NCBI GenBank assembly: GCA_025449845.1
Contig: JANWIP010000017.1
Coordinates: 1-64,000, forward strand
DNA length: 64,000 bases
Direction: 5' to 3'
Source: Solirubrobacteraceae bacterium
GTDB lineage: Bacteria; Actinomycetota; Thermoleophilia; Solirubrobacterales; Solirubrobacteraceae
The first letter of the stretch is position 1. Every line of letters starts with the position of its first letter. This document shows, piece by piece, positions 41,100 through 63,916 of the stretch. Under the pieces are notes generated by a model. The model saw nothing but the letters and a program-made list of their open reading frames with translations, was not told where the DNA came from and made no database searches. The position numbers and the translations under genes were made by a program.

Positions 41100-41203
41100 C
41101 GAAACGGAAGTGTATGGCAGCAACGCGGCCTTGTGGTGTGCGTAAGGCATTGGTCACAGAATGGTTACAGGTGTTTTCGCAAACAGCGCGGATGGGGGAG
41201 CCC

Positions 41204-44513: not shown

Positions 44514-44544
44514 TGCGTCCGTCCTTCGATTGCCCGTACTGTCA

Positions 44545-47291: not shown

Positions 47292-47337
47292 AGCGTCGCA
47301 TCATCGATCTCGCGCGCGCGGCTGGAGTTGCCAAGTC

Positions 47338-47381
47338 GTGATCCGTTCGTGAAAAAGCGGTGAAAGGATCGTTAGCGCTCG
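47338..47381 (-). promoter_or_regulatory. Four-unit PHO-box-like array before pst operon 1
   Basis: Contiguous 11-bp units on the + strand begin GTGAT (47338), GTGAA (47349), GTGAA (47360) and GTTAG (47371). In the minus sense the core reads TTTCACC and TTTCACG. It is 47 bp upstream of the receiver-less regulator and 65 bp upstream of the divergent DUF47 gene, so it may serve both. Confidence 0.7.
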
Positions 47382-47445
47382 CGAGGCGTCAATATTCTTC
47401 GCCGATGACTTTCCCTCGCCTACTCCGTCGTCTGCGCGTCGGTCG

Positions 47446-48081
47446 ATGAGCTTTCTGCGTCGCAGCCCTGACGGGGCCTTGATGGAGTTGGTCGAGGAGG
47501 CCGGGCGCAACGTTCAACGCTCTGGCCTGCTGATGCGCGATCTGCTGGCGGACTTCCCCGAGCACGCCTCGCTCGCCCGCGATCTCAAGGTCTGCGAGCA
47601 GGAGGGCGATCGCATCACCCACGACATCATCCACCGCCTCACCGGTCGCGGGCGCGTGGCCGCCCCTTTCGACACCGGCGATGGCTATGCGCTAGCCACC
47701 GCGCTCGATGACATCGTCGATCACACCGAGCAGGCCGCCGCGCAGCTCGGGCTCTATGGGGTCGAAGCGCCCATGGAGCAGTCGCTGGAGTTCGCCGAGG
47801 TGCTCGTCGGCGCCGGCGAGCAGATTGCCCGTGCGCTGCGCTGCCTGCGCACAGGCACCGAGCTGGCGCCTCATCTCGTCGAGATCCACCGCCTTGAGAA
47901 CGAGGGCGATCGCTTGCAGCGCGATGCCGTGGCCTCGCTGTTCGTGGGGGGCATCGATCCGATGGTCGTCATCCGCTGGAAGGACATCTTCGAGTCCCTT
48001 GAGGCTGCCGTCGATGCTTGCGAGACCGTCGCTCATGTACTTGAGGGGATCACGCTCAAGCAGCGCGGGCGGCGACGCTGA
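47446..48081 (+). CDS. DUF47 / PhoU-like phosphate accessory protein
   Basis: 211 residues. All-helical PhoU-divergent family: GRNVQRSGLLMRDLLADFPE, KVCEQEGDRITHDIIHRL, TALDDIVDHTEQAAAQL and HRLENEGDRLQRDAVASLF. The E-x-x-x-D metal-type motifs (EQEGD, ENEGD) are present. Such proteins usually adjoin a Pit-type transporter; none is here. It diverges from pst operon 1 across a PHO-type array, which suggests a role in low-phosphate control of transport. Confidence 0.82.
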   Translation: MSFLRRSPDGALMELVEEAGRNVQRSGLLMRDLLADFPEHASLARDLKVCEQEGDRITHDIIHRLTGRGRVAAPFDTGDGYALATALDDIVDHTEQAAAQLGLYGVEAPMEQSLEFAEVLVGAGEQIARALRCLRTGTELAPHLVEIHRLENEGDRLQRDAVASLFVGGIDPMVVIRWKDIFESLEAAVDACETVAHVLEGITLKQRGRRR

Positions 48082-48093
48082 GGGCTGCAAAAG

Positions 48094-48143
48094 ATCTCAT
48101 TGCAGAAGAACTTATTGCGCAATAAGTTATGGCGTCATGAGAT
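48094..48143. other. 50-bp nested dyad with a perfect 20-bp palindromic core
   Basis: Core AACTTATTGCGCAATAAGTT (48109-48128). Outer arms ATCTCAT (48094-48100) and ATGAGAT (48137-48143) are each exactly 8 bp from the core, so two dyads share one centre. It is AT-rich against its surroundings and lies in the 147-bp gap between the DUF47 gene and the convergent lipoprotein gene. It may be a bidirectional terminator, a recombinase or mobile-element site, or a protein-binding site. There is no U-run. Confidence 0.7.
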
Positions 48144-48228
48144 GTCTCGCGGCGGACGAGCTGCACAACATCGCCCGCACAGATCTGTACAGGTAGGCCT
48201 TGCATGGGCGGCTTCGTACAGACGGCCC

Positions 48229-48966
48229 TCACCCGAGCGTCGTCGGTGGAGCGCTCGCTTCGAGTTGTGTGCCTTTGGGGCTGCCGATGAAGAACACCTG
48301 AAAGGGCACGTGCTGCTTCGCTCCAACTTCCGGCAGCACCGCGCGACCTGCCGCGACTATGTGGCCCCCGCGCCGTCCCACCACATATACCACCAGCTTC
48401 TGCTGAGGTATTTGCGAGCGGTTGCTCACGGTGCCTTCGGCGCCTAGGCCGTTGCTGGGGTCTGCAAAGGTGTGCACACCACTGATGCTCAGCTGGGGCA
48501 GCGCGCCGTTGGCGGCAGCGGCTTCACCCACCAGCGCACTCGCCTTTGCCGGCACGCCCGCGGCCTGGATCTGGTCATCGATCCATATGGTTGCCGCGTG
48601 GGGTCTCAGCAATGGGACCGACACAAGCGTCGTGTCCAGTCCCGGAGCATTGTTCCGGTAGAGCACTGCGCCTCTGCCATCGTTCACCGTAATTGCGATC
48701 GGCGCTTCGTGCAGCGTCTTTGAGGATTCATTGCGCAGCGCGACCACTGCCGCGACGCCGTTTTCATCGTGCACCACGTACGTTGCCACCACCTTCACTT
48801 GCGGGTTCTCGCGCGTCACCGCCACGCCTTTCTGGGCCGCTTCCGGGTGCGCCAGACGTTGCTCGCGCGCGGCCTTTTCCAGCTTCGCGCTCCGCTGCGC
48901 GTTGGTCTCGCAGCCGCTTAGGGCAAGCGTTGCCACGGCGAACGCCGCCACCAACCGAATGCTCAC
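48229..48966 (-). CDS. Lipoprotein of pst operon 2
   Basis: 245 residues, GTG start overlapping the pstB-2 stop (GTGA). Lipoprotein signal MSIRLVAAFAVATLALSGC (Cys19). The mature part begins with a charged helix (RSAKLEKAAREQRLAHPE) and then looks beta-rich (VVATYVVHDENGVAAVVALR, ISGVHTFADPSNGLGAEGTV), like FxLYD-type immunoglobulin-fold lipoproteins. It is not a known Pst subunit; coupling to pstB suggests a role on the outer face of the transporter (inference). Confidence 0.7.
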   Translation of the reverse strand: MSIRLVAAFAVATLALSGCETNAQRSAKLEKAAREQRLAHPEAAQKGVAVTRENPQVKVVATYVVHDENGVAAVVALRNESSKTLHEAPIAITVNDGRGAVLYRNNAPGLDTTLVSVPLLRPHAATIWIDDQIQAAGVPAKASALVGEAAAANGALPQLSISGVHTFADPSNGLGAEGTVSNRSQIPQQKLVVYVVGRRGGHIVAAGRAVLPEVGAKQHVPFQVFFIGSPKGTQLEASAPPTTLG

Positions 48967-49874
48967 CCAAACGCTCCGCTGATGTACTCGCGCGTGCGCT
49001 GCTGGCGGGGGTTGTCGAATACCTGGTCGCTCGATCCATACTCGACCAGCTCGCCCAGGTGCATGAAGGCCACGTGATCGGCCACCCTGAACGCCTGCTG
49101 CAGGTTGTGTGTGACGATCACGATCGCCACGCTCTCGCGCAACCTGGAGATCAGTTGCTCGATCGTGGCTGTGGAGATGGGGTCAAGCGCGGAGCATGGC
49201 TCGTCCAGCAGCAGCACCTCCGGGTTGGCCGCCAGTGCGCGCGCGATGCACAGGCGCTGCTGCTGGCCCCCCGACAGGCGCAGCGCCGGATGGTTGAGAT
49301 CGGCCTTCACCTCCTCGTACAGGCCGGCCCTTTGCAGTGCTTCCACCACCGCCGGTTCAAGCTCCTTGCGCCCGGCTCTGCGACGACCGCGCCAGCCACC
49401 CCGATGCTCCTCGTCTCGTCCGCCGCGACGCTCCTCGCGCAACGCGTAGGCCACGTTCTCAAACACGCTCATCGGGAAGGGGTTGGGCTGCTGAAAGACC
49501 ATCGAAATGCGCCGGCGCAGAGCCGTCACCTCAAGGTCGCTGATCTCCTGGCCATCCAGCGTGACCCGGCCGGCCCTCGTCGCTCCCGCCGTCACCTCCG
49601 TCAGGCGATTGAGCGAGCGCAGCAGCGTTGTCTTACCCGAGCCTGAGGCGCCGATCAGGGCCAGCACCTCGCCTTCGCGCACCGGCAGCGTCACATCTCG
49701 CACCACCCAGCGATCGCCATACGCGAGTGACACATTCTCGATACGCATTCTCTCGGTCACCTTTGCCCCCATGGGAGCATCCGGCAGTGGTGCGGGCCTG
49801 CCGTTGCTGGGCGGGGGCGCCACCACGGTCGGCTCGCGCTCCACCACGATTCTCCGCACAGGTGGCGGTCCCAT
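48963..49874 (-). CDS. pstB: Phosphate ABC transporter ATP-binding protein PstB (operon 2)
   Basis: 303 residues from ATG 49874, sharing one base with the pstA-2 stop (TGATG). Walker [64 protein letters not shown] and VIVTHNLQQAFRVADHVAFM. There is an Arg/Gly-rich insertion (REERRGGRDEEHRGGWRGRR) after the Q-loop and an N-terminal extension of ~40 residues. It differs from operon 1 PstB in both, so it is not a recent copy. Confidence 0.93.
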   Translation of the reverse strand: MGPPPVRRIVVEREPTVVAPPPSNGRPAPLPDAPMGAKVTERMRIENVSLAYGDRWVVRDVTLPVREGEVLALIGASGSGKTTLLRSLNRLTEVTAGATRAGRVTLDGQEISDLEVTALRRRISMVFQQPNPFPMSVFENVAYALREERRGGRDEEHRGGWRGRRRAGRKELEPAVVEALQRAGLYEEVKADLNHPALRLSGGQQQRLCIARALAANPEVLLLDEPCSALDPISTATIEQLISRLRESVAIVIVTHNLQQAFRVADHVAFMHLGELVEYGSSDQVFDNPRQQRTREYISGAFG

Positions 49875-50938
49875 CAGTCCCTCCACGGCATCCACCTCCA
49901 CAGCATCGGCCCTGTCAGACCCGCCAGCCAACGCGGCTTGCCCGAGCTCAGGCGCGTCACCACCATGTTCAGCGCCAGCACCATCATCAGCAGCACGAAC
50001 GCCGCCGCATAGGCCTTCTCGGGCGCATTGCCTTCTCCGGCCGGGGAGTTTTCGAACACATAGCTCGTCAGCGTCGAGCCTGTGCCGCGCAGTGTGGAGA
50101 GCCCGGGTGTGCCTCCGGCCCCTTCCAGATGCAGCGAGGCACCCAGCAGAATCACCACGATCGCCGTGTCGCCGATGATCCGGCCCATGCCCAGCGTCGT
50201 GCCGCTGGCGATGCTGGGGCGGATCGAGGGCAGCAGCACCCTGCGGATCGTCGTCGCCCGCGTCTTGCCCAGCGCGTAGGACGCCTCGCGCATGTGCGCG
50301 GGTATCTGTGCCAGGCCCTCGCGCGTAGCGCTCACCACCAGTGGCAGCGCCAGCAGCGACATCATCGCGCCGGCTGCGAAGAATGAGCGCCCATAAACCG
50401 CTCCGCCTGCCGAGGTCTGTGAGAGGAACGCCAGGCTGGGGCGGGCGAAGATCAGCAGGCCGAAGAACGCCAACACCACGCTCGGCGCTCCGGCGATCAT
50501 TTCGATCCCCGACTCCACCGCTTGTGCCAGCGCCGCCGGACGGCGGTACTCCGAAAGCCACACCGCCACTGCCACACCGATCGGTGCTGCCAGCGCGATG
50601 CCGATCGCCGTCAACAGCAGCGTGCCCTCGATCGGGTCCAGGAAGCCTCCCGATCCGCTCTGGCTCTGCGAGGCGCTTGGGTGTTCCAGCAACAGCCCCG
50701 GACGCAGATAGGAGATGCCCTTCACAAACATCACCAGCACGATCCCTGCCGCCAGTGCGCACAGCAGCAGGCCCGCTGCCCAGCACAACAGGTAGCCCAC
50801 ACGGTCCATCAGCGGCCACGAGGAGATCGAGTCCTGCCCGTGGCCTGTGCTCTGGCGGGCGGGCCTGCTGGGGCTCGCCGTGGGGCTCGGCAGAGGACGG
50901 GGGCTTGGCGCGGCCGGCCCCATGGGCGTGTGTATCAT
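49874..50938 (-). CDS. pstA: Phosphate ABC permease PstA (operon 2)
   Basis: 354 residues from ATG 50938, preceded by an AGGCGAG site; an earlier ATG at 50986 would overlap pstC-2 by 17 bp and lacks a ribosome site. Pro/Ser-rich cytoplasmic start, then helices. Landmarks: GAPSVVLAFFGLLIFA, REASYALGKTRATTIRRVLL and GRIIGDTAIVVILLG. The latter replaces the usual R-A-x-G-E-T-A with R-I-I-G-D-T-A. Confidence 0.88.
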   Translation of the reverse strand: MIHTPMGPAAPSPRPLPSPTASPSRPARQSTGHGQDSISSWPLMDRVGYLLCWAAGLLLCALAAGIVLVMFVKGISYLRPGLLLEHPSASQSQSGSGGFLDPIEGTLLLTAIGIALAAPIGVAVAVWLSEYRRPAALAQAVESGIEMIAGAPSVVLAFFGLLIFARPSLAFLSQTSAGGAVYGRSFFAAGAMMSLLALPLVVSATREGLAQIPAHMREASYALGKTRATTIRRVLLPSIRPSIASGTTLGMGRIIGDTAIVVILLGASLHLEGAGGTPGLSTLRGTGSTLTSYVFENSPAGEGNAPEKAYAAAFVLLMMVLALNMVVTRLSSGKPRWLAGLTGPMLWRWMPWRD

Positions 50939-50969
50939 CGGGCGCTCGCCTCGTGCGGCGCGCTGGACA

Positions 50970-51968
50970 TCAGGTGCGGATCCCATAGCGCTTGAGCGGC
51001 TGCTTGACCGACCACGCGGCCAGCGACAAGGCGGCGGTGGACACCAGCACCACCGCCGCCATCGCGTACAGCGTCTGGCTCAACGGCACCACCGATAGGT
51101 TGTCCTTGTAGGTGATGATCGTCGCCGCCAAGGGCCTCACCGGCTCAAACAGCGCCGTGCGTCCGTCGAGCAGATTCACTGGGAATGAGCGGCTTCCGCC
51201 TACCAACGCCAACATGATCGCCTCACCCAGCGCTCGCGCGGTGGCCAGCACGGCGCCCGCAATGATCGCGGGTCGCGCGGTGCGCACCGACACTCGCCAC
51301 ATCGTGCGCCAGCGATTGACCCCCAACGCCGCCGAGCCCTCGGTCCACGAGTTGGGCACCGCCGAAAGCGCATTGACCGTGATCGCCACCATGATCGGCA
51401 CGATCATCACCATCAGGATCAGGCTCGCCACCAACAGGCCCGCGCCGTTGAGCTGCACTACGTAGGACACCGACAGCTTGCGGCCTTGCGAGATCAGATG
51501 CTGGTTGATCCACGGCACTACCAGCAATATCCCGATCAGGCCGAAGATCACCGATGGCACCGCCGCCAGCAAGCGCACTACAGGTTCCAGTATCCGCTTC
51601 ATGCTCTGAGGCGCGAACTCAACGATGAAGATGGCGCTCAGCACTGACAGCACCAGCCCGAGTACGACCGCGATGCCCGTCGTGAGGGCCGTATCCCACA
51701 GGAGTGGCCACGCGCGCAGGTGATAGACGTAATGGGCCGGGTCGGGAGGACTGTTGACGATCGCCTTGATCTGCTGATCGACATCGCCCCCTGGGAAAAA
51801 CCACTTGATGTATCCGTTGTGCGCAAACGACGGCCAGGCCTTGACGAACACCGTCACCAGCATCGCCACCACGAAGGCCAGCACGGCCACCGAAACCGCG
51901 CCGAGCGCGAGCTCGGCGCGGCGTTCCGCTGAGAGGTTCAGCCGCTGCCACCTGGAGTGCCTAAGCAT
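50970..51968 (-). CDS. pstC: Phosphate ABC permease PstC (operon 2)
   Basis: 332 residues. Landmarks: LAAVPSVIFGLIGILLVVPW, EGSAALGVNRWRTMWRVSV and TARALGEAIMLALVGGS. The external loop between helices 1 and 2 (NGYIKWFFPGGDVDQQIKAI) is longer than in operon 1. It follows pstS-2 across a 67-bp spacer rich in GGTGGAG-type repeats. Confidence 0.88.
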   Translation of the reverse strand: MLRHSRWQRLNLSAERRAELALGAVSVAVLAFVVAMLVTVFVKAWPSFAHNGYIKWFFPGGDVDQQIKAIVNSPPDPAHYVYHLRAWPLLWDTALTTGIAVVLGLVLSVLSAIFIVEFAPQSMKRILEPVVRLLAAVPSVIFGLIGILLVVPWINQHLISQGRKLSVSYVVQLNGAGLLVASLILMVMIVPIMVAITVNALSAVPNSWTEGSAALGVNRWRTMWRVSVRTARPAIIAGAVLATARALGEAIMLALVGGSRSFPVNLLDGRTALFEPVRPLAATIITYKDNLSVVPLSQTLYAMAAVVLVSTAALSLAAWSVKQPLKRYGIRT

Positions 51969-52035
51969 GCTGGGGCTGGCGTTAGCGGTGGAGGCGGGGT
52001 TGGCGGTGGAGGGGGGTTAGTGGTGGAGGGGGCCG

Positions 52036-52854
52036 TTAGTGGATCGGAATCCACTGGCTGCCGACGATCTTCACGACCGCGGCATTGTGCGGCTTGATGA
52101 CCCACTTGATGAACTTGGCAGCCGCGCCCTTGGGTGCGCCTTTGGTCACCATCCAGAAATTACGCACGCCCTGGTACTGGCCGGACTTCGCGTTACGCAA
52201 CGTGCACGGTATGCCCTGGTAGCTCACCGCGTTTGTGCCGGGGGTGAAGGCGAAGGAGGCGAAGCCGATCGCGTTCTTGTCCCCGATGACCGCCTGGCGC
52301 ATCGTTCCATTGGATTCCTCAGCCGAAGCGCTCGGCGAGATCTTCAGGCTTTCGCCGAGGAAGATGTTCTGGAAAGCATCCTGCGTACCGGAGGAAGCTA
52401 CGCGCTGGAAGAGGTCGATCGGCCCCGTCACGCTGGCGCCGGGAACTTCGCTCCAGTTGCGTACCTGGCCCGTGAAGATCTGCTGCACCGTCTGCTGGTT
52501 GAGGTTGCTCAGAGGGTTGCCGGGGTTGGTGATCACGCAAACACCGTCCCGTGCAATCTTTGTGAACACCAGACCATGGGGGTCCACGCCGAGGATCGGG
52601 TCGCGCGAGACATCGCCGATGTCGACGCGGCCTGAGTTCACATCGCTGATGCCCACGCCGGAGGTACCCTGGCCGACTTTGGGGGTAGGCGCGTGGGTGG
52701 ACTTGTGGTAGGCCGCCGCCAGCTGGTTCATCAAGGGGAAGATCGAGGTCGATCCGTCGATCAGCAGCGCCCGTCCCTGGGCCATGGCGGGCACGCTTGC
52801 CAGCGCCAGTGCGGCAAGCAGCGAAACGGTTAGTGAGCGGTTGATTCTGCGCAC
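52036..52854 (-). CDS. pstS: PstS-like phosphate-binding protein without lipobox (operon 2)
   Basis: 272 residues from GTG 52854; AAAGGAGT lies upstream and the signal RSLTVSLLAALALASVPAMA follows at once. No Cys is present at the cleavage site, so the product is probably secreted or loosely held rather than a lipoprotein. PBP-like phosphate-binding features: LLIDGSTSIFPLMNQLAAAY, VGQGTSGVGISDVNSG, VDIGDVSRDP and RVASSGTQDAF. It is shorter than PstS-1. A six-unit PHO-type array lies 80-150 bp upstream. Confidence 0.88.
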   Translation of the reverse strand: MRRINRSLTVSLLAALALASVPAMAQGRALLIDGSTSIFPLMNQLAAAYHKSTHAPTPKVGQGTSGVGISDVNSGRVDIGDVSRDPILGVDPHGLVFTKIARDGVCVITNPGNPLSNLNQQTVQQIFTGQVRNWSEVPGASVTGPIDLFQRVASSGTQDAFQNIFLGESLKISPSASAEESNGTMRQAVIGDKNAIGFASFAFTPGTNAVSYQGIPCTLRNAKSGQYQGVRNFWMVTKGAPKGAAAKFIKWVIKPHNAAVVKIVGSQWIPIH

Positions 52855-52935
52855 GGTGCGTTGACTCCTTTGGTGAACACCCGGGGCAGGCAGCCCCGGA
52901 GGGACCCGGAGTGTCGATTGCTCACCTTTGGAGGG

Positions 52936-53001
52936 GGTGAACGAGCGGTGTCTCTCTGGAGAAAATCTGGATAACACACGTGACGGATTTGTGAACAGCC
53001 A
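52936..53001 (-). promoter_or_regulatory. Six-unit PHO-box-like array between pstS-2 and ftsH
   Basis: Units with cores GTGAA (52937), GTGTC (52948), GAGAA (52959), GATAA (52970), GTGAC (52980) and GTGAA (52991) on the + strand; spacing is 11 bp except 10 bp between the fourth and fifth. In the pstS-2 sense the outer ones read GTTCAC. It could also influence the divergent ftsH, whose ATG is 46 bp away. Confidence 0.65.
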
Positions 53002-53047
53002 TTGCTTTCGCCTCGGGGCGCTGTGACACTGCCGGCGCTCCCCTGCC

Positions 53048-55195
<2,148 letters not shown>

Positions 55196-56062
55196 ATGCG
55201 CGGGCGCTTCTCCCGCCGCAGCGCCTCCACCGAGGCTCCCCGCTCCTCCCGCCCCGTCTCGGCTGCCGAGGCTCGCGGCTCCGGCGTGCTCTCCAGGGCG
55301 TCGCTCGTCATCTCCATCCTGGCGCTGATCCTCTCCACGACGGGCCTTGCCGATGCGGCGCGCAAAGCCGTAGGCCATGCAGTCTCCGGTCTCGTGGCTG
55401 GGCACCGTGTCAGCGCCAAGCCGCTGGCGGGGGGCATCCTCGTGCTTGGCAAGAATCGCAAGTTCCCCGTCGCCGCGATTCCCACCGTCAAGAACGCCAG
55501 TGCCGTGGGCGGGCTGACCGTGGCAGGTCTCTCGGCCTGTCCTCCCACCACCGCCGACCTCGGCACGTGGTGCTTGGAAGAGTCGCCTTACCCATTGACC
55601 ACGCAGGATGCGGGCAAGAACAACTACTTCTGGGCGAGCCAGGCGTGCGTTGAACGGGGCGGCTATCTGCCCAGCGCGGCGCAGCTAATCGGCGCCGCCA
55701 AGCGGGTCAAGCTTGAGTCCACGATCCACGACAACCAGGACACCGCCACGATCCAGCTGGACCCGACCGTGGGTCTCAAGGATCAGCGCGAGATGTCGGC
55801 CTCGCTGACCACTACCGCTGCCGGCTCCGACGCGGCAGGCTTCGAGGGGGTCAGTCAGGGTTCCACCGGCAATCCCCGCACGGGCGAACCGAACCCGGTG
55901 CCGCTGCCGGCGGTGCCCCAGCCGGCCACGCTGCAGTACATCACCGTCTACTCCAACGGGCAGCAGGGTGGCTTCGCGGGGTCCGAGCCGGTGTCCCAGC
56001 CGGAGAACTTCCGCTGCGCCTACAACCGGGCTCCGGGAGCCAACAAGAACGAAAACGGCTGA
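55196..56062 (+). CDS. Membrane-anchored extracytoplasmic protein, unknown function
   Basis: 288 residues; the ATG immediately follows the ftsH stop, so probably cotranscribed. Arg-rich cytoplasmic start, one helix (~33-52, LVISILALILSTTGLADAA), then an external domain with four Cys: SACPPTTADLGTWCLEES, WASQACVERGGYLPSAAQL and ENFRCAYNRAP. The tryptophan-cysteine arrangement faintly recalls C-type-lectin-like surface domains, but I do not assign it. It may be an FtsH partner or client. Confidence 0.6.
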   Translation: MRGRFSRRSASTEAPRSSRPVSAAEARGSGVLSRASLVISILALILSTTGLADAARKAVGHAVSGLVAGHRVSAKPLAGGILVLGKNRKFPVAAIPTVKNASAVGGLTVAGLSACPPTTADLGTWCLEESPYPLTTQDAGKNNYFWASQACVERGGYLPSAAQLIGAAKRVKLESTIHDNQDTATIQLDPTVGLKDQREMSASLTTTAAGSDAAGFEGVSQGSTGNPRTGEPNPVPLPAVPQPATLQYITVYSNGQQGGFAGSEPVSQPENFRCAYNRAPGANKNENG

Positions 56063-56130
56063 CGACGTGGGGCGGGTCGCGCTGACCCCGCCCCAATGTC
56101 GTTACCTCCAGAAGGGAGGCCGTCAGCGGC

Positions 56131-56727
56131 CTATACCTCTTTGAGTCCTATGCCGGTGATGGTTGCTTTCTGTTTCGCTTCTTTGGTTTCTTTGATGCCC
56201 AGGCAAAAACCACTGGGTTTGGTGGTGATGCCTGTGTCTTCCGCAACGGTCAGAAGATTTGAGCCGCTGTTTGACAGGGTGTTTTTTTCAAGACCCGTCT
56301 GGCCCCCAGGCACTTTGATGGTGCAGGTGCCAAGGACTTTAACTTCAACCGTGCATTCGGTTACTGTCGAACCGACTGCTTTGGTCGAGCCAGCTGCTTG
56401 TTTGAGTTCAAAGGTGCATGCTTTGACGGTGGCGGCTGCCCCGTTGATAATGCTGCTTTTAGCTTTGCAGCCATTGAATTTTTTGGACTTGATCTGCATC
56501 GAGGTGCCTTTTGTTGCTTCGACTCCTCCGGAGAGGATCTCCCATTCACCTTCGGCGCTGGTACATTCAAGCGTCGCGCCTCCACCTTCAAGGACGACGG
56601 CGCCGGAGTTGCCTTCGCCGTGACCCACGCCCGTGTTGGACTGGAATTCGGCGAAAGCCGGGGCTGCCGAGACGGCGAGCACCGCGACCATGACGGAGAA
56701 GACCGCCACTAGCTTTGCTTTGATCAT
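56131..56727 (-). CDS. Small secreted protein, unknown function
   Basis: 198 residues. Clear signal peptide (LVAVFSVMVAVLAVSAAPAF, then AEF). The mature protein is beta-rich with six cysteines (ATLECTSAEG, FNGCKAK, VKACTFEL, VTECTVEV, LGTCTIKV and GFCLGIK), probably disulfide-bonded. The DNA is visibly more AT-rich than its neighbours, as is the 266-bp upstream stretch, which may indicate separate origin or strong expression. GC-poor TTTT tracts follow the gene on its own strand but no clean terminator is seen. Confidence 0.7.
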   Translation of the reverse strand: MIKAKLVAVFSVMVAVLAVSAAPAFAEFQSNTGVGHGEGNSGAVVLEGGGATLECTSAEGEWEILSGGVEATKGTSMQIKSKKFNGCKAKSSIINGAAATVKACTFELKQAAGSTKAVGSTVTECTVEVKVLGTCTIKVPGGQTGLEKNTLSNSGSNLLTVAEDTGITTKPSGFCLGIKETKEAKQKATITGIGLKEV

Positions 56728-56993
56728 GCTGCTTGCTCCTTATTTTGATTGATGGGTCAGGAAGCGCCAAAGACGCTCCGCTGGAAAGGGCGCTAGCCGT
56801 CCCGAAGGCGTCGGCTGGCCCTGAGTCCTCCCTCGGAGGCTCTGTGCCATCGTGTCCCTTGGAGCAGGATTCGTCAAGGTAAATATCGGAAACATTTTGA
56901 TGAATCGACGAGGGTTGGAACGGTCGCCGTCGAGAAAGGCCCGTAGGACAAGGGTTCCTGTAGGGATATATTTTCTGACGAAGTCGGAGACGG

Positions 56994-57449
56994 TCAGCGA
57001 TCGGAAACGTTTCCGATCGCAATATTCGAACCGCCGGCACTCGGCGGTGTGGCCGCAAAGCGGTAGCCGACGCCAAAGTGGGTGTGGATATAGGCCCAAC
57101 CGGGCGCTACGTGGGCCAGCTTCGTCCGGACCTTGCGCACAAACACGTCCACGGAACGATCGCGGTGCTTCATCTGGCCACCCCACACCTGGCTGTAGAT
57201 GTCGCCGCGGCGCAGCACGTGGTCCTCGCGCCGCGCCAGAACCAGCAGGACCTGGAACTCGCGCACAGTCAGGCCCACGCGACGGCCGTCCACCAGGGCC
57301 TGTATCTCCTCGGGGCGAATCTCAAGGTTGCCGTGCACCAGCGCGAAGCTGTTTTCATGCCCCCCGGGTTGGTGCATAGCGTGTTCGTGCCCCCCCGGTT
57401 GGTGCAAAGCGGTTCCCCCCTGATATGAGCGGAGCGACTGGTCGTCCAC
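56994..57449 (-). CDS. Receiver-less OmpR/PhoB-type winged-helix protein (second)
   Basis: 151 residues, GTG start. After a repeated His/Gly-rich leader (ALHQPGGHEH, AMHQPGGHEN) comes only the winged-helix domain: LEIRPEEIQALVDGRRVGLT, VREFQVLLVLARREDHVLRR, DRSVDVFVRKVRTKL and AYIHTHFGVGYRFAA. No receiver. A four-unit 11-bp array lies 38-81 bp upstream. The last eight codons and the stop coincide with a perfect 24-bp palindrome. It is closest to the winged helix of the complete regulator at 40188-41099 (IHTHFG-GYRFAA shared). Confidence 0.85.
   Translation of the reverse strand: MDDQSLRSYQGGTALHQPGGHEHAMHQPGGHENSFALVHGNLEIRPEEIQALVDGRRVGLTVREFQVLLVLARREDHVLRRGDIYSQVWGGQMKHRDRSVDVFVRKVRTKLAHVAPGWAYIHTHFGVGYRFAATPPSAGGSNIAIGNVSDR
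56997..57020. promoter_or_regulatory. Perfect 24-bp palindrome at the end of the second receiver-less regulator
   Basis: Left arm GCGATCGGAAAC, right arm GTTTCCGATCGC. The centre GGAAACGTTTCC resembles a LacI/GalR-family operator, or the hairpin could be a terminator at the gene end; it overlaps the last coding codons. A related half-site, TCGGAAACATTTT, occurs around 56886-56898 in the same intergenic stretch before the secreted-protein gene. Otherwise 56728-56993 shows only AT-rich sequence. Confidence 0.6.
57357..57416 (-). repeat. Duplicated 30-bp segment coding HQPGGHE
   Basis: Two imperfect copies of a C-run plus GGTTGGTGCA-type unit near the start of the regulator gene code (A/M)-HQPGGHE(H/N). 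The C7 run in one copy is a slippage candidate that would change the frame ahead of the DNA-binding domain. Confidence 0.65.
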
Positions 57450-57486
57450 TGGCCGCGCGAAGTTATTACGGGCCTTGTGGGGCTAG

Positions 57487-57530
57487 GTGAAAGGGCGGTG
57501 ACGTTATGGATAACAAATGGTGAACGCCCT
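57487..57530 (-). promoter_or_regulatory. Four-unit PHO-box-like array before the second receiver-less regulator
   Basis: Exact 11-bp register on the + strand: GTGAAAGGGCG (57487), GTGACGTTATG (57498), GATAACAAATG (57509), GTGAACGCCCT (57520). In the gene's sense: GTTCACC, GTTATCC, CGTCACC and TTTCACC. It is the clearest array in the window. A weaker pair (TTCACC 57569, ATTACG 57580) faces the divergent zinc-ribbon gene. Confidence 0.75.
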
Positions 57531-57625
57531 GGGCCTGGAGCCTGAACGCCATAGGCCTGAGGCTCGCGTTCACCAAATGATTACGTCCAGGCGAGCGGCT
57601 GCCTAGACCATGAGGCGTCTCGCCG

Positions 57626-58426
57626 TTGGACCGCCCTTTCTTCCCACGCGCGAGGAGATTCCCTCTGTCCGCCGACTCGACAGCAAGCCCACCGCCCAGC
57701 CGCGATCCCTCCACGGGCGATCCCTCCACGGGCGATCCCAAACCGTGCACGACCTGCGGCGCGGCGATGGATGCAGGCCAGCGTTATTGCCTGGAGTGCG
57801 GCGCGCGCAGGGCGCATCTGGGCGGTGTACGTGAGGGCTTGCGAGTCTCTGCTCCGCACGGTGAGTCTGCGGCCGGCGGTTCGTCTGGACTCAGCTCGTC
57901 TGGACTCAGCTCGTCTGGACTCAGCTCGTCTGGACGCGGGCCGGCTGGACCGGCGGGACTCGGGCCGGCTGGAGCTGGAGGTTCGCCGTCATCTTCGCCC
58001 ACGGCGCTGGTCGGCGTCGGGGTCGACCCCCTGGCTGGGACTCCCCCGCGCGGCAGCGGTGCGACGGCGATCATCGCGGGTGTTGGCGTGCTGCTGCTGG
58101 CGATGGGCATTGGCGTGCTGATCGGGCGTACCGGCTCGAGCACCGGCAAGGCGACGGCTGCGCCGCAGGTGATCGTGGCCCAACCTGGCGCCGCCGCGGC
58201 TGGCACGGGTGCGGGTACGGGTAGCACCTCAACCACGTCCACTGCGACATCCACCACCACTTCCGCCGCGGCGCCCAAGCAGAGCAAGTCCTCTTCCACC
58301 GGCGTAGGCTCAGAACCCAGCAAACCGGCGCCGCCTTCGGTGCTCAAGAACCTGCACACCGGCGGCAGCGGGCAGAGCTACGAGCAGAAGTCCAAGAACC
58401 TTCCCAACGTGGTCTCCACCGGCTGA
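57626..58426 (+). CDS. Zinc-ribbon membrane protein
   Basis: 266 residues, TTG start with no ATG or GTG in frame before the zinc ribbon, so the start is uncertain. Zinc ribbon CTTCGAAMDAGQRYCLEC near residues 41-58. A low-complexity SSGLSSSG repeat follows, then one membrane helix (~148-168, AIIAGVGVLLLAMGIGVLI) and a Ser/Thr/Pro-rich external tail ending in YEQKSKNLPNVVSTG. TGATG overlap with the next zinc-ribbon gene. Function unknown; it may sense or scaffold at the membrane. It is divergent from the PHO-array-controlled regulator. Confidence 0.65.
   Translation: MDRPFFPRARRFPLSADSTASPPPSRDPSTGDPSTGDPKPCTTCGAAMDAGQRYCLECGARRAHLGGVREGLRVSAPHGESAAGGSSGLSSSGLSSSGLSSSGRGPAGPAGLGPAGAGGSPSSSPTALVGVGVDPLAGTPPRGSGATAIIAGVGVLLLAMGIGVLIGRTGSSTGKATAAPQVIVAQPGAAAAGTGAGTGSTSTTSTATSTTTSAAAPKQSKSSSTGVGSEPSKPAPPSVLKNLHTGGSGQSYEQKSKNLPNVVSTG
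57881..57940 (+). repeat. 15-bp in-frame repeat, three perfect copies plus a partial
   Basis: Unit TCGTCTGGACTCAGC at 57881, 57896 and 57911, then a diverged copy; it codes SSGLS. Another 15-bp pair (CGATCCCTCCACGGG at 57703 and 57718) lies earlier in the same gene. Confidence 0.9.
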
Positions 58427-58815
58427 TGGCCCCGCGTGAAGGAGATGTCGCTGCCTCGTCACTGCGACGCCGTCGTGATGAGCTGGCCGAGCAGGTGGCC
58501 GAACAGCAGTGGGACCTTGGTGGGTTGGCATATGAGATGGCCATCCGCGATCACTTCCGCCTCGACGTGCTGGTGCGCAAGGCCGCTCAACTGCAGGAGC
58601 GCGACGCCGAGCTGGCCGAGCTGGAGCGCCTATTACGCCTGGAGGATTCGGCCAGCGTCGGCAACTGTCCTGCCTGCGCGGCGCCTCACAGTCGTGGCGC
58701 GCTCTTCTGTTGGCAGTGCGGCGCCACGCTGATGGAGCGCGCGCCGAGTACGGCGGTGCCTGTCGAGCGGCAGGACACGCTTGTCATGGGTCCCGTGGTC
58801 GTCGCCAGGGATTAG
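58426..58815 (+). CDS. Coiled-coil zinc-ribbon protein
   Basis: 129 residues; the ATG shares one base with the stop above. Residues ~8-75 are helical and probably coiled coil (SSLRRRRDELAEQVAEQQWD, VRKAAQLQERDAELAELERL). A zinc ribbon CPACAAPHSRGALFCWQC follows, with C-x2-C pairs. No membrane segment. Its zinc ribbon matches the type in the upstream membrane protein, so the two may interact. Function unknown. Confidence 0.7.
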   Translation: MAPREGDVAASSLRRRRDELAEQVAEQQWDLGGLAYEMAIRDHFRLDVLVRKAAQLQERDAELAELERLLRLEDSASVGNCPACAAPHSRGALFCWQCGATLMERAPSTAVPVERQDTLVMGPVVVARD

Positions 58816-58828
58816 GCGGCACTCGCCA

Positions 58829-60412
58829 GTGCTGCGCAACCTCGATCAGCTGACGCTTCCGACGCCTTGGGTGCGCGGCTTGTTGGTGCTGATCTTTCTG
58901 GGCTTCGGCGTGATGGTGGGGAGCGTCACCTCCGATTCGGCCAGCTCCGCGGCTTCGCCGCAGGCGCACCTGAAGTTGCTGCTGCCACCGGCCACGGTGG
59001 CTTCGGCAGCACCGCCCGTTACGCCGAGCAGTCCCGCGGCTCCCGCGGTGACGCCTACGCCCACCAAACCGGTCGCGGCGGGGGGAGCCGAAGGTGCTCC
59101 AAATGGCGCTTCCTCCAGCTCGGGGAGCGGGGCATCTAGTGGCAAAGCTGGTTCTTCGGGCTCCGGATCGGGCAGCGGCAGCGGCGCGGGATCGGGCAGC
59201 GGTGGCGGCTTGGGCAGCGGTGCAGGCGCGGGCAGCGGTGCAGGCGGGGGCAGCGGTACAGGATCGGGCGGGAGTCAAGGCTCAGGCGGCGGTCAAGGAT
59301 CGGGCAGCGCCAATGGGTTACCTGCCGTCAAGCACGTATTCCTGATTGTGCTCGCCAATCAACCTTACGCGGCGCTCTTCGGGCCGGCCTCCAAGGCGAC
59401 CTATCTGGCGCATACGCTGGAGAAGCGCGGAGAGCTGCTGGTGCGCTACTACGCGGTCGCCCACGACGAGCTGGCCAATGGGATCGCCTTGGTGAGCGGA
59501 CAGGGGCCGACGGCGCAGACCGCCACCAACTGCCCCACCTTCGCCGGCATCACGCCGGTGACGCTCGCCGCCGAAGGGCAGCTGACGGGGCAGGGCTGCG
59601 TCTATCCCAAATCCACCGAAACGCTGGCGGGGCAGCTTGCCGCCAAGCACCTCACCTGGCGGGCCTACGTTGAGGGGATGACGCCGGGCGCTTGCGCACA
59701 TCCTGCGCTTGGAGCCGGCGATCCGACCGTTGGGCCGGCACCGGCGCCGGCGGCGACACCGGGCACAGCCATAGGCACGCAGGGGACGCCCGCCAACCAG
59801 GCAGCCGCGGGCGCGGTATATACGACCTTCCGCAACCCTTTCATGTACTTCGAAAGCATCATCGGCGCCTCTTCGGCATGCCCCTCGAACGACGTTGAAC
59901 TGGGGCATCTGAGCTCGGATCTCAAGAACGCCCAGCACACTCCTTCGCTGTCCTACATAGTGCCTTCGCTCTGTCACGACGGCAATGTCTCGCCTTGCGC
60001 CCCTGGGCAGTCCGGCGGCCTCGCGCCGGCCGATGCCTTCCTGGAAAAGGTCGTGCCGCCGATCCTGGCCTCCAAGGCCTACAAGCAGGGCGGTCTGCTA
60101 GCGATCACCGTCGATCAGGCGCCGGCCACGGGGGTGGAAGCGGACTCCAGTTCCTGCTGCGGTCAGCCTCGCTTCCCCAATCTGCCGGCCCCCGCGCCAT
60201 TGCCCGGAGGCGGGCAGCTGCCGCCGTTAGGCGGGGGCCAGGTGGGGGCGCTGCTGCTGTCGCCTTTCGTCAAGGCTGGCAGCGTCGACCAAGAACCTTA
60301 TAACCACTTCGCGCTGCTGCGCACGATCGAGGATCTCTTCGGGCTCAAGCACCTGGGGTACGCCGGCGGCAAGGGCGTCAGCTCCTTCAATGCCGAAGTC
60401 TTCGCAAAATAG
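58829..60412 (+). CDS. Phosphoesterase-family (PF04185-like) membrane-anchored protein with altered active-site positions
   Basis: 527 residues from GTG 58829, 14 bp after the previous stop; an earlier start at 58781 would overlap it. One N-terminal helix (~12-30), then a long Gly/Ser linker (~85-165). The catalytic-type domain begins VKHVFLIVLANQPYAALFG: family members usually have E-N at the A176-N177 position, so the metal-binding Glu appears replaced by Ala. LLAITVDQAPATG stands where T-x-D-E is usual. The end, QVGALLLSPFVKAGSVDQEP followed by YNHFALLRTIEDLFGLKHLG, is strongly family-like. It may have lost or changed phosphatase/phospholipase activity. Its location fits phosphate scavenging. 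Confidence 0.7.
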   Translation: MLRNLDQLTLPTPWVRGLLVLIFLGFGVMVGSVTSDSASSAASPQAHLKLLLPPATVASAAPPVTPSSPAAPAVTPTPTKPVAAGGAEGAPNGASSSSGSGASSGKAGSSGSGSGSGSGAGSGSGGGLGSGAGAGSGAGGGSGTGSGGSQGSGGGQGSGSANGLPAVKHVFLIVLANQPYAALFGPASKATYLAHTLEKRGELLVRYYAVAHDELANGIALVSGQGPTAQTATNCPTFAGITPVTLAAEGQLTGQGCVYPKSTETLAGQLAAKHLTWRAYVEGMTPGACAHPALGAGDPTVGPAPAPAATPGTAIGTQGTPANQAAAGAVYTTFRNPFMYFESIIGASSACPSNDVELGHLSSDLKNAQHTPSLSYIVPSLCHDGNVSPCAPGQSGGLAPADAFLEKVVPPILASKAYKQGGLLAITVDQAPATGVEADSSSCCGQPRFPNLPAPAPLPGGGQLPPLGGGQVGALLLSPFVKAGSVDQEPYNHFALLRTIEDLFGLKHLGYAGGKGVSSFNAEVFAK

Positions 60413-60478
60413 CGCTGGGACTGGGCGAGCGGAGGTGTGCGGCAAGCGCCGTGGGGTTATTGGCGGCGACTCGGGCGA

Positions 60479-61357
60479 CTAGATACGCGCGGCCAGCTCG
60501 TCGTAGGTGATCGCGGTGCGCTTGGAGCCGGCTCGGCTGAGAACGTGCTCCAGCGCGAGCATATGTCGCGGCCGGTCGAGATCTGCCGGGTGCAGGTCCA
60601 GGCGCAAGGTGCGTCCTTGCAGCAGGCTGCCGGCGCGGATCAGCGAAGGTGAGAGCGCACGGCGTATGACCCCTGCGCTGCCCACGTGCCATGCGGGTGC
60701 GAGCAGCTGGTGGGTGCCTGTATTCGCGTCTGGATCGACGTCGGTGCCCATGCCCATATCTGCTCCGATGCTGCGATGCGCGCCAAAAGCACTGTGCAGG
60801 CGCAGCAGTCCGGCCCACCAACGGAAGCGCATGCTGAGCTTGCTTTCGGTCGAGAGCGTGGTGCGCAGCGCACGCGTATAGGCGTAAGCAGGCGCCACGA
60901 ATCCGTCAGGCTCCACGCCGGCGAGCTTCAGTACGCGCCAGCCGGCCTCGACCGCCCGCCGCGTCTCGGGGCCATCGAGCCCCACGAACTCGGCGGCGCG
61001 CTGATGGCCCGTGGCGGGTGCGCGCAGCCGCTGCGTCCAATCGGGACGGCGCAGACGCTCGTGTTGGAAGCCGTGTTGGGCGATCGAGTCCCCGCGCCGC
61101 CGCCGCTCGGCGAGCCACTGGATCATCTCCGGCGAACGCTCGCCAAGGGGATGCAGATCGCGGGCGGGGATCACCAGCAGGGTCACGCGATCCACGCCAT
61201 GGTCATCGAGCCAGTCGCGGATGCGAGCGCAGCGCTCGAAGGTGGCCGGCTCGACGTCGTGCAACGCCACGGCGATCGTGCCCTTGGTGCCCATCCCGCC
61301 ACGCGTAACGGTGCTCTTCGCGGCGTATCTTGCACCGAGCGCACCCTCAGGCGGCAT
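60479..61357 (-). CDS. Polysaccharide-deacetylase-like protein (DUF2334)
   Basis: 292 residues; ATG 61357 overlaps the glycosyltransferase stop by 11 bp (an alternative ATG is at 61294). NodB/DUF2334-type (beta/alpha) barrel: IAVALHDVEPATFERCARIR with the HD metal motif, LLVIPARDLHP, SIAQHGFQHERLR with the H-x3-H motif, and GFVAPAY. LRLDLHPADLDRPRH near the end carries another His. It likely removes an acyl group from a sugar made by the partner glycosyltransferase. Confidence 0.75.
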   Translation of the reverse strand: MPPEGALGARYAAKSTVTRGGMGTKGTIAVALHDVEPATFERCARIRDWLDDHGVDRVTLLVIPARDLHPLGERSPEMIQWLAERRRRGDSIAQHGFQHERLRRPDWTQRLRAPATGHQRAAEFVGLDGPETRRAVEAGWRVLKLAGVEPDGFVAPAYAYTRALRTTLSTESKLSMRFRWWAGLLRLHSAFGAHRSIGADMGMGTDVDPDANTGTHQLLAPAWHVGSAGVIRRALSPSLIRAGSLLQGRTLRLDLHPADLDRPRHMLALEHVLSRAGSKRTAITYDELAARI

Positions 61358-63833
61358 GGCGCTTTCCTTCCTTGTTGTTTCCCTGCGTGTCGTTGCCGTG
61401 CGCGTCGTTGACGATCGACAGCGCTCGCCGATAGCCCCCCGCGAGGCGCTCCAAGGCGCTCTCCCAGGTGCGCTCGCCCACGGCGCTCAGCGCGGCGGTA
61501 GCCAGGCGCTGGCGCAGCAGCGGGGAGCCGGACAGCTCCAGCAGGCACTGGGCCAGCGCCTGAGGATCGGGCTCGCAGAGCAGGCCATCGACACCGGGGC
61601 GCACCAGCGATAGCGGACCGCCTCGCGCGAGCGCCACGACCGGCAGGCCGCTGGCCTGGGCCTCGAGGATGACCTGGCCGAAGGTGTCGGTGGCACTGGG
61701 GAACAGGAAGATGTCGGCACTGGCGTAGGCCTGCGCCAGCTCACGGCCTGCGAGCCAGCCGAGGAAGGTGGCATTCTGGCCGAGGCGCTCGCGCAGGTGC
61801 TCCTGCTCGGGGCCGCCGCCGGCGAGCACCAGGTGCAGCCGCGGGTCGCGTCTGTGAGCCTCCAGGAAGGCCTCGGCCAGCAGCTCCGAGCCCTTCTCGC
61901 GCGTTATGCGCCCGGCGTACAGGACATTGATGGCGCCTGGCAGCCGCAGCTCCCCGCGCAGCGAAGGGTCGAAGCGGGCGGTGTCCACACCCCGATCCCA
62001 GCGCGCTGTGCGTTGGTCGCTCACGCCGAGCTGCGCCAGCGCCTCATCGGAGGCCGGACTGGGGGAGAGGACGAGGTTACAGGCGTTGTAGAAGGAACGC
62101 ACCGCCAGGTCCATTGCACTCGCCACGCGCGCATCTTGTGAACGCAATGCGGCGTAGGCGGTGAGCTCTGTGTGGTAACTGCCCACCAGCGGCAGTCGCA
62201 GACCGCGTGCCACTAGCGCCCCGGCGATTCCGACCGGGCCGGGAGAGCAGACGTGGATCGCGTCGAAGCGGCCTTCGGCGAGCGTCTCCACCGCGACCGT
62301 CAGGCTGGGCACGCCGATCTTGAGGCCTGGATAGAAAGGCACCTCGATCTCGGCCACGGCCGACAGGCGCCGGTCGACATCGGCGTCGGTGCCGATCACC
62401 TCGATCTCAAAGCCGCGCACTCCGCGCTCGCGGATCTCCTCGATCGTGCGCGTCACGCCGTGCGTGCTGCCGATGCCATCGGCCAGGATCGCCACGCGCG
62501 GCGTCTCGTCCTCGCGCGCGTCGAGCTTGGCCTTCTCGTTGCCCAGGAACGCGGTCGCGGGGGCGTATGGGATCGCGGCGATGCAGCCTTCGAACACGCC
62601 CGTTGCGGCGGCCATGAGATCGGGGGCGCCGTCGGGGGCGTTCTCGCAGGCGCCTTCGGGGGAGGTGTTTTCGGAGGCGCCTTCGATGGCGCAGACCACC
62701 TCACCGATCGCGGCCCGCAGTTTGCGCTCGTGTGCGCGCGAGGCCCGCCGGTAGAGGTCGGAGTGGCTGAAGTGCTCTTGCTGCATATAGGCGATCAGCC
62801 CGCGCTCGTCGAGGTGGTCGAGTTCCACGGCGCTCAGCCAGGCGCGCAGCAGCTGCCGGGCATCCTCAGGCGTCAGGTCGTTGCCGGTGGCCCCCTGACG
62901 CGCGTCGCCCTCGCACAGCAGTCGCTGCATCATCAGCATCACCGCACGGGGGTTGGGTCCGAGCTCGCCCTTGGCCATGCGCGGTTCGCCCTCGGCCGCG
63001 CGCGGTTCGCCCTTGGCCACGCCCTCGGCCATGCACGGTTCGCCCTCGTGCCCGGCCAGACGCTCCCCCACGGCGCCGCTGCCGAGCGCGCGGGCGGCGA
63101 GGGCGATGGCGGCGTGCGCCCACTTGGCGGCGCTGCCCTGGGCCCCGCGAGCAACCCCTTCGCCGGCTCGCAGGTAATCGAGATACTCAGCCGGTGTCGC
63201 AGCCCAGGGCGCTTCGGTGAAGGTGCGCCCAATATCGACCCCGGCGTGATCGTCGCTACCGCCGATGCCGATCCCCTCGCGCGTGCCGATGTAGATGGCG
63301 GCCGGCCGATTGAGCTCACGGGCGCGCGAGCCGTTGCGTACCTCCCAGATTCCGAATAGGTCGGCCAGATGCCGGCGGTGGCGCGCCGTCAGTGGGGCGC
63401 CGACGTTGTAGTAAGGGTGCGCAAGCGCACAGACGATGTCGTTGCCGTGCAGATACTCGGCGCACTCCTCAACATTGCCGCTGTGAGCCTGTAGCCATTC
63501 GTGGTCTTCGGGCGTAATGCCGTAACAAAGCACGTGCACCGCCTGAGGCTGGCCGCGAAAAGAGGTCGTCAGCTCCTCTGAGATGAATACGTCGCAGCGC
63601 TCGGCGATCTGCAGCACCCCGTCGATGGTGTCGTGGTCGGTGATCGTGACGAAGTCCATACCGCGCCGCTTGGCCAGCTCGTAGACCTCTTCGGGCGGGG
63701 TGGCACACTCGGGCAGTCCAACAGCGCGCTGCACGCCTAGCCGCGATTCCTGGGAGGCCGTGGAGTGACAGTGCAGATCCACGCGCGACCTTGAAGGCTC
63801 GCTTGCCGTTAGCTTGAGATCCGAGGCTGTCAT
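61347..63833 (-). CDS. PHP-domain / GT4 glycosyltransferase fusion
   Basis: 828 residues. N-terminal PHP metal-dependent phosphoesterase domain: VDLHCHSTAS (H21, H23), TITDHDTIDG (D66-D68), CALAHPYYN and GIGGSDDHAG keep the metal-binding set. A helical linker (~235-400) includes GEPRMAKGE-type repeats. The GT4 domain starts RVAILADGIGSTHGVTRTIE and shows GSYHTELTAYA, VLYAGRITREKGSELLAEAF and SATDTFGQVILEAQASGLPV (nucleotide-sugar site). It is coupled to the DUF2334 deacetylase and preceded by a PHO-type array, suggesting a sugar or glycolipid product made when phosphate is scarce (inference). Confidence 0.85.
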   Translation of the reverse strand: MTASDLKLTASEPSRSRVDLHCHSTASQESRLGVQRAVGLPECATPPEEVYELAKRRGMDFVTITDHDTIDGVLQIAERCDVFISEELTTSFRGQPQAVHVLCYGITPEDHEWLQAHSGNVEECAEYLHGNDIVCALAHPYYNVGAPLTARHRRHLADLFGIWEVRNGSRARELNRPAAIYIGTREGIGIGGSDDHAGVDIGRTFTEAPWAATPAEYLDYLRAGEGVARGAQGSAAKWAHAAIALAARALGSGAVGERLAGHEGEPCMAEGVAKGEPRAAEGEPRMAKGELGPNPRAVMLMMQRLLCEGDARQGATGNDLTPEDARQLLRAWLSAVELDHLDERGLIAYMQQEHFSHSDLYRRASRAHERKLRAAIGEVVCAIEGASENTSPEGACENAPDGAPDLMAAATGVFEGCIAAIPYAPATAFLGNEKAKLDAREDETPRVAILADGIGSTHGVTRTIEEIRERGVRGFEIEVIGTDADVDRRLSAVAEIEVPFYPGLKIGVPSLTVAVETLAEGRFDAIHVCSPGPVGIAGALVARGLRLPLVGSYHTELTAYAALRSQDARVASAMDLAVRSFYNACNLVLSPSPASDEALAQLGVSDQRTARWDRGVDTARFDPSLRGELRLPGAINVLYAGRITREKGSELLAEAFLEAHRRDPRLHLVLAGGGPEQEHLRERLGQNATFLGWLAGRELAQAYASADIFLFPSATDTFGQVILEAQASGLPVVALARGGPLSLVRPGVDGLLCEPDPQALAQCLLELSGSPLLRQRLATAALSAVGERTWESALERLAGGYRRALSIVNDAHGNDTQGNNKEGKRHAA
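62970..63050 (-). repeat. Degenerate ~21-bp repeats coding GEPRMAKGE-type motifs
   Basis: TCGCCCTTGGCCATGCGCGG-type units repeat three to four times between the PHP and GT4 domains, coding (A)(E/K)GEP-(R/C)-(M/A)-A. They lie in a linker, so length change should be tolerated. Confidence 0.6.
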
Positions 63834-63872
63834 GACGCTGAGACTAGATTCGGCTGCAAAGCGCCACTTTTT

Positions 63873-63916
63873 GTGACGAGCCCGAGATCAGCGTGTGAAG
63901 GAGTGGTGAACGAAAG
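63873..63916 (-). promoter_or_regulatory. Four-unit PHO-box-like array before the PHP-GT4 gene
   Basis: Contiguous 11-bp units on the + strand start GTGAC (63873), GAGAT (63884), GTGAA (63895) and GTGAA (63906). In the sense of the minus-strand gene the strongest reads GTTCACCACTC-CTTCACACG. It is 40 bp upstream of the start at 63833. Confidence 0.7.

Follow-up and report, generated by a model that had tools for sequence, protein, structure and literature searches.

Which proteins control the phosphate genes in a 64,000-nt stretch of the genome of a Solirubrobacteraceae bacterium (GCA_025449845.1, contig JANWIP010000017.1, positions 1 to 64,000; hereafter the window)? In textbooks the Pho regulon exemplifies two-component control. 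The evidence below supports the conclusion that tandem arrays of 11-bp units upstream of these genes are PHO-box-like and mark a phosphate regulon. On balance we also consider it probable that the arrays are read by a single family of regulators, the orphan protein RR1 and the receiver-less proteins wHTH1 and wHTH2, in bacteria that have probably lost the usual phosphorelay from PhoR to PhoP. The operators are a new instance of a known PHO-box kind; the unusual part is the regulators, a point that a sequence-only reading of the same DNA had missed, and not the extent of the arrays. The window's own genome (G000) comprises 3.27 Mb in 36 contigs and is 92.6% complete, its contig (C17) measures 257 kb, and further G and L numbers denote genomes and loci compared. 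The Solirubrobacterales are an order of the class Thermoleophilia.

Five arrays were located in the window, each upstream of a minus-strand gene, and on the minus strand all of their units read as TTCAC-like. Array A1 (47323..47377, minus strand) precedes wHTH1 and has five 11-bp units, four starting at 47338, 47349, 47360 and 47371 and a fifth, with GGCAAC, at 47323-47333, which is additional to the four noted before and is also present in relatives. Array A3 (57483..57526, minus strand; units at 57487, 57498, 57509 and 57520) lies upstream of wHTH2, and array A4 (63869..63912, minus strand; 63873, 63884, 63895 and 63906) upstream of the fusion gene PHP-GT4. The weakest array, A2 (52933..52997, minus strand), has six units upstream of pstS2 (52937, 52948, 52959, 52970, 52980 and 52991) and contains the single 10-bp step, between 52970 and 52980; its unit at 52948 and the A4 unit at 63884 are variants. 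Array A5 (46853..46874, minus strand) has two units (46857 and 46868) between the 3' end of wHTH1 and pstS1. The sequence-only reading had described the unit positions, the 11-bp phasing with one 10-bp step and the placement upstream of same-orientation minus-strand genes, and all of these were located as it had given them. The arrays consist of at least two direct repeat units of 11 nt with a conserved core, as a PHO box is defined in PMC4415409.

Each array was scored with a matrix from which that array had been left out, and compared with the 64-kb window shuffled 100 times by a first-order Markov model. The scores of A1 (30.9), A2 (25.4), A3 (27.9) and A4 (33.3) exceeded the highest shuffle in every case (19.4, 16.6, 18.7 and 18.3, respectively), so that none of the 100 shuffles reached any of the four, and the best non-array place in the window scored 9.9-15.5 with the same matrices. 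The A5 pair alone is marginal (score 20.7, reached by 1 of 100 shuffles) and was accepted because relatives repeatedly show a two-unit site in the interval from the wHTH gene to pstS. With a matrix trained on relatives and steps of 8 to 14, high four-unit scores were obtained at step 11 only (A1 34.7, A4 29.3, A3 26.8). In the whole genome, GTGAA-N6-GTGAA occurs 14 times, nine of them on C17, against one occurrence of the backwards pattern; around the pattern matches on C28, C29, C31 and C34, the chosen thresholds yielded no arrays of two, three or four units. A scan of G000 with model R1 (150 of 379 candidates scored) returned five places, all on C17 and all on the minus strand, these five arrays being part of the R1 training set. 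The regulon had been called scattered, a description that is not supported in this genome, where the five strong arrays found share one contig. A fifth four-unit array at C17:83452-83495, also on the minus strand, faces the 3' end of one plus-strand gene and has its back to another, which encodes a long protein of secreted appearance; no minus-strand target gene is evident.

The arrangement is conserved in relatives. The closest named relatives of wHTH1 (n=11, L009-L019) are all from metagenome-assembled genomes, nine of Solirubrobacteraceae/Solirubrobacterales and two of Actinobacteria, and the set of conserved loci comprised the 30 best wHTH1 matches among 151 genomes of the order, G000 included, with some loci ending at contig ends. 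With the window's matrix, 28 of these 30 loci showed an array ahead of the receiver-less gene, in which TTCAC-type units are succeeded by one of TAAC type closest to the gene. A second four-unit array stands between the receiver-less gene and pstS in 21 loci, pstS follows that gene in 21, PhoU_div lies across the array in 22, and a same-orientation receiver upstream of the receiver-less gene was found in none of the 30. Five rounds of shuffled relative loci gave no four-unit array and one two-unit array at the same thresholds. PHP-GT4, present in 13 of 40 other genomes, is preceded by a four-unit array in 12 of the 13 (65-170 nt from the estimated gene start, scores 14.6-26.8), including G010, a genome of another family, and shuffled PHP-GT4 loci (943 kb) yielded no array at the level of the real ones and two at a score of at least 12. 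Under stricter filters, with 25 candidates scored per genome, 43 of 249 genomes of the class matched model R2 (described below) at E<=1e-4, nine of them outside the order. Four units are usual in the relatives read, and since the PhoP operator of Streptomyces pitH2 also has four (PMC7866108) such a number was not unknown; GlnR boxes, too, follow an a-b-a-b order (PMC10704036), and the earlier suggestion of an unusual extent is not supported. In one other family of the class, f9, arrays also occur before pstC and elsewhere (L181:2566-2642, L187:6443-6486, L181:8067-8110), and one f9 stretch scores as overlapping arrays across about seven units.

Model R2 was built from 24 arrays, all of other genomes with G000 excluded, and its reversed form, R3, served as the control. 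Both were run against 12 genomes (G000 and 11 others) with 150 candidates scored per genome, and the R2 matches were chosen without recourse to gene function, gene content being read afterwards. At E<=1, R2 gave 74 matches and R3 two; at E<=0.05, R2 gave 30, of which six belong to its training set, and R3 none. In G000 it matched A1 (E 2.2e-5) and A4 (E 0.0485), and in five of the six non-training genomes (G000, G063, G135, G051, G090) the best match lay before a receiver-less wHTH gene. Beyond the nine best matches (L122-L130) there were 65 others, of which 19 were read for gene content, the remaining 46 being mostly weaker. Thirteen of the 19 loci lead into phosphate-linked genes, or 11 without the more weakly phosphate-linked phytase-like gene (L137) and the PHP-GT4 of the window (L142): these are wHTH with pstS or phoU, or alone (L131, L132, L143), ppk (L135, L139, L147), GDPD (L136, L146), metallophosphoesterase (L134, L150) and PhoU_div (L138). 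No nitrogen genes were evident among the 19. An array was found ahead of ppk in 3 of the 11 other genomes scanned; the ppk1 of G000 (37491..39701, minus strand, profile match) has no four-unit array found in front of it. The sequence-only reading had proposed a phosphate regulon marked by PHO-box-like arrays and had named shuffled windows and a weight-matrix scan of this and related genomes as its tests; both came out in its favour, with a model free of G000 and a reversed control. A response of the downstream genes to phosphate is predicted.

The proteins that would read these arrays depart from the usual pattern. wHTH1 (46836..47291, minus strand, 151 aa in an open frame of 154) and wHTH2 (56994..57449, minus strand, 151 aa in an open frame of 162 codons) each have an OmpR/PhoB-type DNA-binding domain (PF00486) and no receiver, as had been noticed before. 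RR1 (40188..41150, minus strand), an orphan regulator adjoining phoU, combines a PF00486 domain with a receiver that matches PF00072 at E 2.8e-06 and 27.9 bits, against a cutoff of 30.2; its acidic pair (LDRDSGF) reads D-R-D where PrrA has D-D-D. The sample comprised 18 distinct Solirubrobacterales receiver proteins (19 listed minus three duplicates, with L185 and L186 added). Eleven have R at the second acidic position, three S, two T and one L; the remaining one, L185, keeps the acidic pair and has N in place of the phosphorylated Asp. None of the 18 has all five conserved residues (DD, D, T, K), and because a pseudo-receiver is defined as lacking at least one of these (PMC12632262), all 18 were classed as pseudo-receivers. 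In two other families of the class, by contrast, the four regulators read at pst loci (L181, L183, L187, L184) have canonical receivers.

A tree of the DNA-binding domains (29 rows, midpoint root, with seven of the ten other G000 regulators included) splits RR1, wHTH1, wHTH2 and the pst-linked response regulators of the two other families from the seven other G000 regulators (97/98). The wHTH1 proteins form a clade (98/94) inside this pst-linked group, and wHTH2 falls outside that clade, which suggests a second loss of the receiver, at a fork that the tree leaves unresolved. The recognition-helix motif DRS[VI]DV is common to 21 of the 22 rows on the pst-linked side, the exception being a row of family f5 (DRAVDVLV), and the helix of wHTH1 (DRSVDVYV) is intact. 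RR1 was also considered as a full-length orthologue of the canonical pst-linked regulators, and this was rejected, as full-length BLAST singles out no such match; the link of RR1 to those regulators is drawn from the domain tree. At L010:4104-5000 a second pseudo-receiver regulator was seen beside PhoU_div, with a two-unit site upstream at 5083-5104; the window has no counterpart seen of this second full-length regulator, but has wHTH2.

No kinase was found on the window's contig, none of the 19 HATPase matches of the genome being on C17, and PhoU was found in G000 only at the C17 pst locus (phoU, 41919..42728, minus strand, PF01895). Of 16 Solirubrobacterales pst loci scanned for H-box and G-box motifs, one contains a kinase (L172, of HAMP type with its own regulator). 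A kinase lies beside phoU in three of five pst loci of other families, the other two loci ending at contig ends. The three f9 kinases (L181, L183, L187) are HisKA/HATPase proteins, one with a PAS match, and are PhoR-like by position. Near-full-length relatives of the L181 kinase were found in both other f9 genomes searched (54% and 66%), and none of full length in any of the 12 Solirubrobacterales genomes searched, where the best matches to it cover the catalytic core only, at 32-40% identity and from residue 160-183 of 405. This fits loss of the linked PhoR in the Solirubrobacterales, and an unrelated kinase would be compatible with the same data.

In the explanation that we judge probable on balance, the arrays would be tandem 11-bp operators read head-to-tail by PhoB/PhoP-type winged-helix domains, as PhoB-type domains are described to bind such repeats (PMC4415409), and the likely readers would be the one pst-linked family of RR1 with wHTH1 and wHTH2. 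In the simplest model RR1 and wHTH1 would share the arrays. The usual phosphorelay from PhoR to PhoP is probably gone from the Solirubrobacterales regulon, and RR1 may be controlled without a dedicated kinase, for example through PhoU/Pst contact, a ligand or a modification, as for GlnR. Once freed of the receiver, the effector domain of PhoB is a constitutive DNA binder (Ellison and McCleary 2000, cited in PMC4415409), and wHTH1 would likewise bind without activation, its level being set by its own promoter. Once A1 is occupied, that level would feed back on the promoter of wHTH1 and on pstS, as an amplifier, or as a limiter if wHTH1 merely blocks the site. Array binding by these proteins, the sign of its effect and the absence of phosphorylation are predictions from sequence. 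More tentatively, with the balance tipping slightly against it, an order-wide regulon without phosphorelay may have arisen by loss of the linked PhoR, decay of the PhoP receiver through substitutions that differ between families, and copying of the DNA-binding domain as a stand-alone, array-controlled gene heading the pst operon, the amount of the bare domain then replacing phosphorylation as the controlling variable.

Several observations weigh against these proposals. On the side of the operators, A2 is the least secure array because its score with the relatives' matrix (10.5) falls under that of step-9 noise (14.4); R2 recovered just A1 and A4 in G000 (150 of 1271 candidates scored); and the best R2 match of G066 is not at a wHTH array. 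Six of the 19 loci read have no evident phosphate gene, namely a choice-of-anchor I protein (L151), a TIM-barrel protein (L141, L148), a gene with no Pfam match (L140) and two places with nothing identified (L133, L149). G048 has PHP-GT4 without an array, and G092 and G012 have the array and RR1 with no receiver-less gene within the stretch read. On the side of the regulators, 17 of the 18 pseudo-receivers keep the Asp, as well as Ser/Thr and Lys, and pseudo-receivers that retain the Asp may still be weakly phosphorylated (PMC12632262); over its full length, RR1 is no closer to the canonical pst-linked regulators than other G000 response regulators are. Finally, other kinases exist in every genome searched, several of those in G000 having no response-regulator neighbour, a HAMP-type kinase with its own response regulator adjoins phoU in G051, and in G145 an array-bearing ppk has a kinase some 4 kb upstream of it.

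Among other explanations, the one that survives best has the receiver-less proteins as limiters, which would hold the arrays without activating, compete with RR1 and provide negative feedback. It gains from the missing receiver, whereas the GlnR receiver adds contacts in the activation complex (PMC10704036), and from the several units per array, so that mixed occupancy would be possible; the position of the gene at the head of the pst operon is amplifier-like and the recognition helix is intact, neither point being decisive, and we regard this role as a possibility of some substance that is nonetheless doubtful. A conventional arrangement, in which an unlinked PhoR-PhoP pair elsewhere binds the arrays and RR1 and the receiver-less proteins are accessory, appears unlikely. 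Eight neighbouring pairs of response regulator and kinase exist elsewhere in G000, linkage is not required of kinases, and RR1 retains the Asp, Ser/Thr and Lys positions, but the DNA-binding domains of the other G000 regulators tested (7 of 10) stand apart from the pst-linked group, none of the 12 genomes searched yielded a full-length counterpart to the sister family's linked kinase, and PhoU was found at this locus only.

The best PDB matches of wHTH1 include the response regulators 8hig, 8hml and 8hih, which we take to be GlnR entries, and raised the reading that the arrays are GlnR-type boxes and the regulon one for nitrogen or for nutrients in general. The GlnR consensus is GTnAC-n6-GaAAc, its units alternating a-b-a-b (PMC10704036), and in the present arrays the unit closest to the promoter often reads GTAAC. 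However, three units in four read TTCAC, like the Streptomyces PHO box GTTCACC, and with 13 of 19 loci phosphate-linked and none evidently nitrogen-linked this reading was rejected on gene content and is very improbable. An artefact of chance or composition, for which the A5 pair is the one point in favour, is practically negligible, as no shuffle reaches A1 to A4, the 11-bp phase is specific and the arrays recur across the class, and both chance and phases other than 11 were rejected by the shuffle and step tests.

The genes around the arrays are as follows. Downstream of A5, pstS1 (45655..46734, minus strand) matches TIGR00975 above cutoff, and pstC1-pstA1-pstB1 (42706..45582, minus strand) are open reading frames named by eye that recover syntenic genes as tblastn queries. 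PhoU_div (47446..48081, plus strand, PF01865) is divergent from wHTH1 across A1. By eye, no clear conserved -10 box was found toward wHTH1; toward PhoU_div, a TATTCT box lies about 32-33 nt from the last GTGAA unit of A1 (window 47378-47446), and TATNCT-like boxes (TATCCT, TATGCT) recur there in several relatives, in some with a start codon a few bases after. As the box is recurrent, A1 may serve PhoU_div as well, and the arrangement suggests a leaderless PhoU_div transcript sharing A1. Downstream of A2, pstS2 (52036..52854, minus strand; PF12849, TIGR02136 E 5e-46, below cutoff) has a putative GTG start at 52854, and is followed by pstC2-pstA2-pstB2 (48963..51968, minus strand), again named by eye, with pstA2 matching TIGR00974 at E 3e-50, below cutoff. 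A gene for an FtsH-like AAA/M41 protease (PF00004, PF01434; 53048-55195) is divergent from pstS2 across A2. PHP-GT4 (61347..63833, minus strand) encodes a fusion of a PHP phosphoesterase-like part and a GT4 glycosyltransferase part, for which NF053787 (GlcN-phosphatidylglycerol synthase) is nearest, far below cutoff. Glycolipids replace phospholipids under phosphate stress in marine bacteria (PMC8231724, PMC4796936), and by analogy a role of PHP-GT4 in such a replacement may be speculated. A DUF2334 gene (PF10096; 60479-61357) directly downstream of PHP-GT4 is a possible glycolipid-modification partner, and the gene divergent from PHP-GT4 across A4 (63915-64000 and beyond) looks sulfotransferase-like from its translation.

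In the open-licence literature, we found no PHO boxes in Solirubrobacter, nothing on topic for phosphate two-component systems or PhoR of Thermoleophilia (as judged by titles and the first part of abstracts), and recognised no comparable receiver-less regulator or regulon reconstruction for this order; as far as that literature shows, kinase-poor, receiver-less control of a phosphate regulon is new. If it is true, these bacteria offer a natural experiment on nutrient regulons that survive loss of the phosphorelay while operators and targets persist, it may represent an unfamiliar mode of phosphate uptake control, and it bears on how pseudo-receivers are controlled, described in a 2025 review as a mystery of mechanism (PMC12632262). 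In addition, an operator model is supplied for the phosphate genes of poorly cultured soil bacteria.

Compared with known systems, the arrays resemble the PhoP boxes of Streptomyces, described as 11-nt units with the core GTTCACC (PMC4415409), in their head-to-tail 11-nt units, their near-identical TTCAC core and their position upstream of pst, ppk and glycerophosphodiesterase genes (PMC7866108, PMC6988585), and differ in their promoter-proximal TAAC-type unit. Streptomyces uses phosphorylated PhoP with its partner PhoR and has two units described at pstS (PMC2605767, PMC7866108), whereas here a pseudo-receiver orphan is accompanied by receiver-less paralogues. Actinomycete GlnR is likewise an orphan OmpR-family regulator with an altered phosphorylation pocket, repeats spaced by 11 bp and a four-unit order (PMC10704036), but it serves nitrogen genes and has a receiver, and the portion of that source available to us describes no receiver-less paralogue. 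As in the atypical response regulators reviewed by Bourret et al. 2025 (PMC12632262), one of the five receiver residues is lacking; unlike atypical regulators in general, here this extends to 18 of 18 proteins of one order, pst-linked and joined by a receiver-less paralogue. The closest comparison is with the kinase-regulator-pst loci of the f9 family of Thermoleophilia (L181, L183, L187), which have the same arrays at pst and DNA-binding domains in the same part of the tree, but in which the receiver is canonical and a HisKA/HATPase kinase adjoins phoU.

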